Shown: piece after piece, positions 1,704 to 3,130 of the stretch
Numbering within the stretch: position 1 is the first letter of the stretch
Layout: each line of letters begins with the position of its first letter
Assembly (NCBI GenBank): GCA_019359155.1
Contig: JAHHHV010000081.1
Coordinates: 1-64,000, forward strand
Source of the DNA: Pegethrix bostrychoides GSE-TBD4-15B
Lineage (GTDB): Bacteria; Cyanobacteriota; Cyanobacteriia; Elainellales; Elainellaceae
DNA length: 64,000 nucleotides
Direction: 5' to 3'
Notes under the pieces: generated by a model
Database searches by the model: none
Seen by the model: only the letters and a program-made list of their open reading frames with translations
Told to the model about the DNA's origin: nothing
Made by a program: the position numbers and the translations under genes

Positions 1704-1839
1704 GACTCGGTATGCTACTTATTGAGCTTATCGATTCTAGCACTCTGCTTTCTAGAGTCGCAACCGTGAACGCAGACCGTCAGGCAAGCCAATTTGAGAT
1801 TCAGCCCATTCTTCTCCTGGGCTATCTTCCAAAGAGGAC

Positions 1840-1869
1840 TTGACTGATTTCCGACAGTTTTGCTACAGT
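1840..1869 (+). promoter_or_regulatory. Candidate promoter of the aroF leader region
   Basis: TTGACT at 1840-1845 matches the -35 consensus at five of six positions. TACAGT at 1864-1869, 18 bases later, matches the -10 consensus at four of six. Transcription would begin near 1876, placing the first leader ORF about 35 bases into the RNA. Spacing and position fit, but this is prediction by eye. Confidence 0.45.
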
Positions 1870-1909
1870 CGTATGCATTGCAGCAAAAATTCCGTTGCGC
1901 CCTATCTAT

Positions 1910-1966
1910 ATGCAGTCAACTCAACAATACTTCTATTGGTTTTTTACGAAGGTTCACCAGGGGTGA
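1910..1966 (+). CDS. Aromatic-rich leader peptide 1 upstream of DAHP synthase
   Basis: An 18-codon ORF encodes MQSTQQYFYWFFTKVHQG. It has six aromatic codons in a row (Tyr, Phe, Tyr, Trp, Phe, Phe) at 1928-1945. Its TGA stop at 1964-1966 lies inside the large hairpin that begins at 1951. No Shine-Dalgarno site is visible, which is common in cyanobacteria. Its composition, size and place before a terminator and a gene of aromatic synthesis are those of an attenuator leader peptide: ribosome speed over the aromatic codons would report the supply of charged tRNA. The role is inferred by analogy with trpL and pheL of enterobacteria; the sequence itself shows only the ORF and the hairpins. Confidence 0.75.
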   Translation: MQSTQQYFYWFFTKVHQG

Positions 1967-2018
1967 GTCCATTTTGTAATGGAGCCTGGTGAACCGCAGA
2001 TTAACCTCTGCGGTTTTT
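1951..2018 (+). promoter_or_regulatory. Attenuator 1: stable hairpin followed by intrinsic terminator
   Basis: Two structures follow the first leader ORF. The first pairs GGTTCACCAGG (1951-1961) perfectly with CCTGGTGAACC (1985-1995) and has an inner stem TCCATT/AATGGA (1968-1973 with 1978-1983). The leader stop codon lies in the internal loop. The second is a terminator, AACCGCAGA (1992-2000) with TCTGCGGTT (2007-2015) followed by a T-run and a further T-run at 2022-2026. They share 1992-1995, so full formation of one weakens the base of the other, though exclusion is only partial. Expected behaviour: a ribosome at the stop codon melts the first hairpin and favours termination; a ribosome stalled on early aromatic codons leaves it free to form. 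Confidence 0.65.
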
Positions 2019-2081
2019 GCGTTTTTAGCCCAGACTTCTAGCTCCCTCTATTCAGTCCAGTTTCTCTCTATTCAGTCCGCC

Positions 2082-2159
2082 ATGATCTCTAACTCCGTTC
2101 GCTGCTTTGGCTCTTACTTTTTTGGATTTTACTTTTGGCTCAGGAGATGCTCCGGGTGA
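2082..2159 (+). CDS. Aromatic-rich leader peptide 2 upstream of DAHP synthase
   Basis: A second short ORF of 25 codons has eight aromatic residues, with the cluster SYFFGFYFW encoded at 2112-2138 (two Tyr, five Phe, one Trp including both flanks). It ends in TGA at 2157-2159, inside the 5' arm of a hairpin that competes with a terminator. The start ATG has no clear Shine-Dalgarno site. A 13-base duplication, CTCTATTCAGTCC, at 2045-2057 and 2065-2077 precedes it. The ORF has no sequence similarity to leader 1 beyond aromatic richness and the shared placement of the stop codon, which argues that both are selected leaders rather than a simple recent duplication. Confidence 0.75.
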   Translation: MISNSVRCFGSYFFGFYFWLRRCSG

Positions 2160-2212
2160 ACTGGTCATGCTGCAACGCAACCACCCCGGAACCGCAAGGA
2201 ACCGGGTTTTTT
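2152..2212 (+). promoter_or_regulatory. Attenuator 2: antiterminator and terminator sharing one arm
   Basis: CCGGGTG at 2152-2158, covering the end of leader 2, can pair with CACCCCGG at 2182-2189 with one bulged C. The same bases 2185-2189 (CCCGG) form the 5' arm of a terminator with CCGGG at 2202-2206, followed by six T residues (2207-2212). The two folds are mutually exclusive. A ribosome waiting on the aromatic codons up to 2138 would leave 2152-2158 free and allow read-through. A ribosome reaching the stop codon would cover it and allow termination. The terminator stem is short but all G-C. The DAHP synthase start is 57 bases further on. Confidence 0.7.
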
Positions 2213-2269: not shown

Positions 2270-3130
2270 ATGCAAAAAGCTCAGCTCGCGCTCAAAGCTC
2301 ATCCCAGCCACAAGAGTCTGGTTCAAGTTTCGGAAACCGTCACTGTCGGCGGCGCAGATTTGCTAATTGTGGCTGGCCCTTGCACCGTCGAATCGCAGGC
2401 GCAGATGGAAGCTGTGGCCAGCCGCATGGCGCTGGCTCCCGTGCAGGCGCTCCGAGGCGGGGTCTATAAGCCTCGGACTTCTCCCTATGATTTCCAGGGA
2501 CTAGGGCTGGAGGGACTAAAAATTCTGGCCGCCGTGCGCGAACGCTCTGGACTACCTGTGATTACGGAAGTCATGGCGATTTCGCAGATTGCCGAAATTG
2601 CGACCTATGCGGATGTGCTGCAAGTCGGTAGCCGCAATATGCAAAACTTCGATCTGCTAAAGGCGCTGGGTAGCGTCAAGCGACCAATTTTGCTAAAGCG
2701 CGGTCTCTCTGCCACACTCGAAGAATTTGTGATGGCGGCCGAATATATCCTCAGTGCTGGCAATTCCAACGTAATCCTCTGCGAGCGCGGCATTCGCAGC
2801 TTTGACTCCTACACCCGCAACGTGCTGGATCTCGGTGCAGTGGTGGCGCTAAAGCAGATTACCCATCTGCCCGTGATTGTCGATCCCAGTCATGCGACTG
2901 GCAAGCGCGAGCTGGTAGCCGATCTCGCGCGCGGAGCAATTGCCTGCGGAGCCGATGGCCTGATTGTCGAATGCCACCCGCAGCCTGAGCAGTCAGTGTC
3001 TGATGCGCGTCAGGCGCTCTCGCTAGAAGCAATGGTAGAACTTGCCGAAAGCCTAGCTCCAATTGCCGCCGCCGTAGGCCGCAGTCTGCCTTCAACAGCC
3101 GGGATAGCGCCCCGGCTTTCGCTTGTTTAG
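2270..3130 (+). CDS. aroF: 3-deoxy-7-phosphoheptulonate (DAHP) synthase, core-only type I-beta
   Basis: The enzyme condenses phosphoenolpyruvate and erythrose 4-phosphate in the first step of the shikimate pathway to Phe, Tyr, Trp and chorismate products. Its 286 residues form one TIM-barrel domain of the DAHP/KDO8P synthase superfamily. GPCTVE (residues 36-41), KPRTSPYDFQG (67-77) and DPSHATGKRE are the substrate and metal-binding motifs; SHATGKR is typical of the I-beta branch. Many I-beta enzymes carry an N-terminal ferredoxin-like or a chorismate-mutase domain for feedback inhibition; this one has only about 30 residues before the barrel and no room for either. AGGA seven bases before the ATG supports the start. 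The two attenuators upstream suggest that control is at transcription. Confidence 0.93.
   Translation: MQKAQLALKAHPSHKSLVQVSETVTVGGADLLIVAGPCTVESQAQMEAVASRMALAPVQALRGGVYKPRTSPYDFQGLGLEGLKILAAVRERSGLPVITEVMAISQIAEIATYADVLQVGSRNMQNFDLLKALGSVKRPILLKRGLSATLEEFVMAAEYILSAGNSNVILCERGIRSFDSYTRNVLDLGAVVALKQITHLPVIVDPSHATGKRELVADLARGAIACGADGLIVECHPQPEQSVSDARQALSLEAMVELAESLAPIAAAVGRSLPSTAGIAPRLSLV

Follow-up and report, generated by a model that had tools for sequence, protein, structure and literature searches.

Is the aroF gene of the cyanobacterium Pegethrix bostrychoides GSE-TBD4-15B controlled by two leader-peptide attenuators placed one behind the other? The question is raised by the start of contig JAHHHV010000081.1, of which we analysed positions 1 to 64,000 (the window). 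A preliminary description of this DNA had noted two short ORFs of 18 and 25 codons, rich in Tyr, Phe and Trp codons, between a candidate promoter at 1840 and a DAHP synthase gene, aroF, at 2270. Each was said to end inside a hairpin arm and to be followed by a terminator, and tandem leader-peptide attenuation was proposed. Our analysis supports this proposal as the best reading of the locus, with a probability of about 0.9; regulation in vivo is inferred, without expression data.

Organization of the aroF leader region

The region comprises the following features, all on the forward strand.

1840..1869 (+), promoter, with a -35 element TTGACT at 1840-1845 and an extended -10 element TGCTACAGT at 1861-1869
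1910..1966 (+), leader ORF LP1, MQSTQQYFYWFFTKVHQG, 18 codons plus TGA, present in 58 loci
1928..1945 (+), LP1 aromatic codon run Y-F-Y-W-F-F, read on the raw sequence
1951..1961 (+), antiterminator 1, 5' arm, formed by the last LP1 codons; 11/11 pairs with 1985-1995, with compensatory changes in relatives
1967..1983 (+), small hairpin atop antiterminator 1 (GTCCA...TGGA), seen in the fold and in many alignment rows
1985..1995 (+), antiterminator 1, 3' arm, overlapping terminator 1; 11/11 pairing with the 5' arm
1992..2026 (+), terminator 1, whose stem 1992-2000/2007-2015 is followed by a T-run
2081..2087 (+), LP2 start-region arm A, CATGATC; own-versus-swapped z -6.4 in relatives and -5.5 on 23 further loci
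2082..2159 (+), leader ORF LP2, MISNSVRCFGSYFFGFYFWLRRCSG, 25 codons plus TGA, present in 57 loci
2115..2138 (+), LP2 aromatic codon run Y-F-F-G-F-Y-F-W, from the raw sequence and the alignment
2149..2158 (+), antiterminator 2, 5' arm, formed by the LP2 end and stop; covariation z -7.2, further loci z -4.2
2163..2169 (+), arm A', GGTCATG, located after the LP2 stop and complementary to arm A
2182..2192 (+), antiterminator 2, 3' arm, overlapping terminator 2, supported by covariation
2185..2212 (+), terminator 2, whose stem 2185-2193/2198-2206 is followed by TTTTTT ending at 2212
2270..3130 (+), aroF, a core-only type I (B. subtilis-like) DAHP synthase of 286 aa

LP1 ends inside the antiterminator arm 1951-1961. 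The end of LP2 lies in the arm 2149-2158, whose pairing with 2182-2192 contains one mismatch and one bulge. This anatomy is shown. Both leaders lie between the promoter and the biosynthetic gene, which meets one criterion for an attenuator, at the sequence level only. The motif TTGAC-N14-19-TGnTAnnnT is found 5' of LP1 in 51/55 relatives, and the median distance from its end to the LP1 ATG is 46 nt. It is missing both between LP1 and LP2 and between LP2 and aroF (0/55 loci in each gap), so that a transcript start 3' of the leaders is disfavoured. A tRNA gene occupies the opposite strand (1632-1703, -), just 5' of the aroF promoter.

The fold of the LP1 region is more stable than all 200 shuffles (z -3.6). 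That of the LP2 region alone, in the window, is no more stable than its shuffles (z about 0), and the case for LP2 therefore depends on the comparison with relatives. The pattern TWY-TWY-TWY-TGG-TWY has four matches on both strands of the 5.7-Mb genome, one of them being the aroF leader region, and its reversed control has none. By inspection, none of the other three matches lies within a short ORF having these arms. No second LP2-like site was found in the same genome (next best E 1.0), and a search for the leader on plasmids gave no match.

Conservation of the leader ORFs

Relatives were fetched with the AroF protein as the query, and duplicates were removed. Among cyanobacterial aroF loci, 58 have LP1, 57 have LP2 and 55 have both under the rules that we applied; the leader-bearing genera include Nostoc, Calothrix, Scytonema, Symploca, Laspinema, Drouetiella, Leptolyngbya and others. 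Scytonema sp. NIES-4073 and Calothrix brevissima NIES-22 are examples of cultured strains that carry the two leaders. In these loci the consensus is approximately M(x5)YFYFWFxxVHxx for LP1 and M(x5)WFYGFYFWPRxxSG for LP2. Tyr, Phe and Trp occur together in 58/58 LP1 and 56/57 LP2 peptides. In LP1, codons -12 to -7 from the stop are aromatic in 84-100% of loci, and the window order Y-F-Y-W-F-F places the Trp codon one codon earlier than in most relatives.

Aromatic and arm codons are conserved, together with the stop, while the remainder drifts, with codons 2-6 near saturation (the difference between loci is almost as large as for random sequence). This conservation is shown. Codon differences at aromatic columns are aromatic-for-aromatic exchanges in 73% (LP1) and 79% (LP2) of cases, as would be expected if aromatic character, and not a fixed peptide, matters. 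A second criterion for an attenuator, a short ORF enriched in codons for the amino acids that the controlled pathway makes, is satisfied by both leaders.

Covariation of the RNA arms

RNAalifold applied to LP1 preferred the local small hairpin and the terminator and missed the antiterminator, and the named helices were therefore tested by comparing the pairing energy of each locus's own two arms with that of arms swapped between loci. The antiterminators reached z -8.4 for LP1 and z -7.2 for LP2, each the extreme of its scanned map. As sequence kinship inflates these z-scores, they were judged against the scanned maps (mean z -0.2 to -1.4). In 23 further loci, previously unused but not phylogenetically independent of the first set, the LP2 antiterminator gave z -4.2 and the helix between arms A and A' z -5.5, and 0/5000 permutations were as low.

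As for individual changes, all 44 distinct arm pairs keep the LP1 arm position that follows GGTTCAC base-paired, through five pair types. In one locus (L174), CAC in LP1 has become CGT and the 3' arm has gone from GTGAACC to ACGAACC; in three others (L176, L186, L187), GGTTCGCCCGGA is paired with TCCGGGCGAACC, and in all four the 3' arm matches a His-to-Arg change in LP1. Elsewhere, the shared segment has become GGACC with the terminator 3' arm changed to match (L177, L178), or GGCTCA stands with TGAGCC (L018, L024). Such compensatory changes support both antiterminators. A third criterion, by which antiterminator and intrinsic terminator should exclude each other and the ORF should end within the former, is thus satisfied, on sequence and covariation only. 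In L182 and L187, the LP1 stop comes five codons early and excludes the VH/VR codons from the ORF, yet the RNA arm is retained outside it.

The helix joining the LP2 start region to its post-stop stretch is weak in the window (7 pairs, P 0.01), possibly because the window LP2 is five codons longer than usual. This type of helix has P>0.5 in 45/57 loci for LP2 versus 12/58 for LP1. As a candidate feature of LP1 it was rejected, because its signal did not compare with that of LP2 and the best z, -3.9, fell at scattered positions.

The preliminary description thus holds for the ORFs, their arm-embedded ends, the terminators, the promoter and aroF. Its expectation that aromatic codons, hairpins and stops would be conserved while the rest drifts was borne out, and base pairs covary. 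It had named two outcomes that would refute it, an absence of conservation or covariation and a transcript start 3' of the leaders; neither was observed when examined at the sequence level.

Distribution of the leaders and class of the downstream enzyme

Genes of the window aroF type occur in 37/386 cyanobacterial genomes (E at most 1e-100). Both leaders are present in 35 of these 37, one genome having LP1 only (G150) and one LP2 only (G177). Covariance models built from the leader loci gave strong matches for LP1 in 38 genomes and for LP2 in 37; six LP2 matches with E 0.002-0.007, covering only about 60-70 bases, were set aside. All strong matches but those of two genomes lie directly 5' of, and in line with, a window-type aroF. 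In these two genomes the gene is broken: G416 (L151) has both leaders intact before a truncated aroF, and in G064 (L152) LP1 survives, running into an aroF remnant. The leaders thus occur once per genome and solely with window-type aroF or its remnants, a near-exclusive linkage. As the models were trained on such loci, the survey gauges linkage and range and is not an independent discovery.

The window AroF scores 352 bits against TIGR01361 (cut-off 268) and thus meets the criterion for a type I, B. subtilis-like DAHP synthase; it also matches NF006421. It has the PF00793 domain but not the ferredoxin-like domain PF18152. Enzymes with PF18152, the common cyanobacterial kind, are found in 313/386 genomes. 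No comparable aromatic short ORF precedes any of 12 paralogous DAHP synthase genes examined, and PF18152 is present in all three leaderless paralogues scanned in relatives (L156, L158, L162). In the genome from which the window comes, PF18152 has no match and AroF has a single homologue. The missing allosteric domain suggests a link with RNA-level feedback.

A model of two gates in series

In the proposed mechanism, one promoter would give rise to a leader RNA carrying two ribosome-mediated transcription attenuators in series, followed by aroF. With enough charged Tyr, Phe and Trp tRNA, the ribosome would reach the stop and cover the antiterminator 5' arm; the terminator would then form, and RNA polymerase would halt near 2016-2026 or 2212. 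If the ribosome were instead held at an aromatic codon, the 5' arm would stay free, so that the antiterminator would form first, capture part of the terminator 5' arm and let transcription continue. Translation of the ORFs, stalling and termination in vivo are all inferred, and coupling of transcription and translation in cyanobacteria is an assumption of the mechanism. Since both gates would have to be passed, their leakages would multiply, giving a wider control range than a single gate. This multiplication is arithmetic inferred from the series layout, as is any benefit of the doubling, and the steeper or graded response suggested in the preliminary description remains an inference.

All loci were folded with ViennaRNA, with a modelled ribosome covering 9 nt past the A codon. 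The predicted LP1 antiterminator forms at stalls -12 to -9 from the stop (P 0.99-1.00) and that of LP2 at stalls -16 to -6 (0.88-0.97), and neither ever forms with the ribosome at the stop. With this footprint, a ribosome on either of the two final aromatic codons in LP1 (-8, -7) would leave the antiterminator blocked. For the full LP1 leader with a stalled ribosome, the equilibrium is near balance (P of the terminator about 0.6) and not fully antiterminated; the switch would thus need to be kinetic. Without a ribosome, the modelled antiterminator has a probability of 0.96 for LP1 and 0.47 for LP2. The latter forms only about half the time because the LP2 start region pairs with the post-stop stretch in most relatives. 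This start helix and the antiterminator would together make a pseudoknot, which is beyond the folding program, and their mutual exclusion is assumed by the method.

It is tempting to speculate that the two gates are unequal. As LP1 defaults to readthrough and LP2 more often to termination when no ribosome is present, LP1 could not separate a missing from a stalled ribosome, and LP2 could. The model thus predicts, as a possibility, a two-stage filter in which only transcripts that are both translated and starved would reach aroF. If so, gene-level control would replace the allosteric domain absent from AroF.

Alternative explanations

LP1 and LP2 might instead encode functional small peptides, with the hairpins serving as ordinary terminators. 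The conservation of the peptides across many genera would fit, but it is limited to the aromatic codons and to codons within RNA arms. Furthermore, VH in LP1 changes to VR with matching changes of the 3' arm (L174, L176), and where LP1 stops before the VH motif (L182, L187) the RNA arm is still kept beyond the ORF. We consider this explanation very unlikely. Scarcely more credible is the idea that a single leader regulates and the other is a relic or insulator: the two genomes with one leader each speak for it, but both leaders are kept in 35/37 genomes, and both antiterminators covary. Membership in a T-box, riboswitch or Rfam leader family, which a leader with a terminator before an amino-acid gene could suggest, is all but excluded, as no match above chance was found at gathering or relaxed E-values in the window leader or in three other leaders (L003, L034, L061), whereas the same search recovers Trp_leader in a Photobacterium aroF locus (L074).

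Two further possibilities concern how the leaders would act. Within tandem attenuation, labour might be divided, LP1 responding mainly to Tyr and Phe and LP2 to all three amino acids, Trp included. The folding model frees the LP1 arm only for stalls up to -9, and the LP1 Trp codon is mostly at -8, while every LP2 aromatic codon is effective. However, this depends on the assumed 9-nt footprint, a shift of one codon would include Trp, and the window LP1 itself has its Trp one codon earlier than most relatives; we find such a division unlikely. The terminated leader RNAs or peptides might additionally act in trans, for which the trp leader peptide of Sinorhizobium offers a precedent (PMC7298713) and for which terminated leaders of about 140 nt or more would be available. 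This idea rests on the precedent, without sequence evidence from our analysis, and appears very unlikely. Tandem ribosome-mediated attenuation remains the preferred reading.

Aromatic leaders outside cyanobacteria

Outside cyanobacteria, DAHP synthase genes are preceded by single aromatic short ORFs in about 19 loci, most of them from Acidobacteriota, where the ORF has the motif S[YF]RFW. A terminator-like hairpin, CCCACTC...GAGTGGG in Acidobacteriota, stands behind most of these ORFs. In a joint test of 18 such loci, pairing between the stretch at the stop and the terminator arm was stronger for own than for swapped partners (z -4.5), as for a covarying antiterminator. Control of DAHP synthase by aromatic leaders is possibly more widespread, the doubling being a cyanobacterial elaboration.

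Loci of the Acidobacteriota type include L068, L077, L080, L082, L085, L091, L095, L100, L107, L108 and others. In the Acidobacteriota loci, the end of a TAnnnT element often lies 7-10 nt 5' of the ATG, a hint of leaderless transcripts. The Photobacterium aroF locus L074 has its Trp_leader match at 1125-1219 (49.3 bits), with the leader MLQQIHHQLCAFFSWWW...

Relation to known systems

The trpL and pheL leaders of Escherichia coli are the classical leader-peptide attenuators. Like the aroF pair, they combine an ORF that carries regulatory codons, a terminator and an antiterminator that exclude each other, and a stop beside the switch, but have one leader for one amino acid where aroF has two for three aromatic amino acids. 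The window leader does not reach the gathering score of the Rfam leader families (Trp_leader and others). The preliminary description placed attenuation in proteobacteria, which held in part: it is also known in Actinobacteria, where the aromatic leader aroR acts before aroF of Corynebacterium glutamicum (Neshat et al. 2014, described in PMC11802643; PMC4046766). There too, an aromatic leader (Phe-Tyr-Phe in aroR) precedes a DAHP synthase gene, and stalling raises transcription. Unlike the cyanobacterial pair, aroR is a single leader in an actinobacterium, with no Trp codons mentioned, and is reportedly responsive to Phe and not Tyr (PMC11802643, PMC4046766). By analogy, the likeness is one of function only.

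Also predicted before an aroF gene is the uORFC-13-1 motif, a Phe-containing uORF adjoining a terminator 5' of Acholeplasma aroF (PMC8632094); it is single, has at least one Phe codon, was proposed from sequence and is restricted to Acholeplasma and environmental sequences. A Tyr attenuator is listed for Shewanella, based on E. coli work (PMC2659441).

That two leaders in series are unusual also held in part, as the tandem attenuators of Salmonella mgtCBR are a precedent, presented as a singular case in which the signals differ (PMC3641672). In both systems two short ORFs stand in series in one leader, each within an attenuator. The mgtCBR signals, however, are ATP and proline, no amino-acid biosynthesis gene is controlled, and its stem-loops are unlike intrinsic terminators, whereas both cyanobacterial gates have terminator-like hairpins and aromatic codons. 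The criterion for an mgtCBR-like system (different signals, without intrinsic terminators) is thus not met, and only the tandem layout is in common.

A 2016 comparative paper found no reliable data on attenuation in cyanobacteria (PMC4833913), and we found no later report of cyanobacterial leader-peptide attenuation in the open-access literature; the preliminary description likewise knew of no described case. As subscription papers and preprints were outside the scope of our search, priority is uncertain.

Significance

If confirmed, the aroF leaders would document leader-peptide attenuation in cyanobacteria, and they imply close coupling between transcription and translation in these organisms. 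The leader region would be an engineering target for aromatic products in cyanobacteria. With both gates predicted to read the same three tRNAs, this conserved two-gate design would be a natural test of attenuator doubling.
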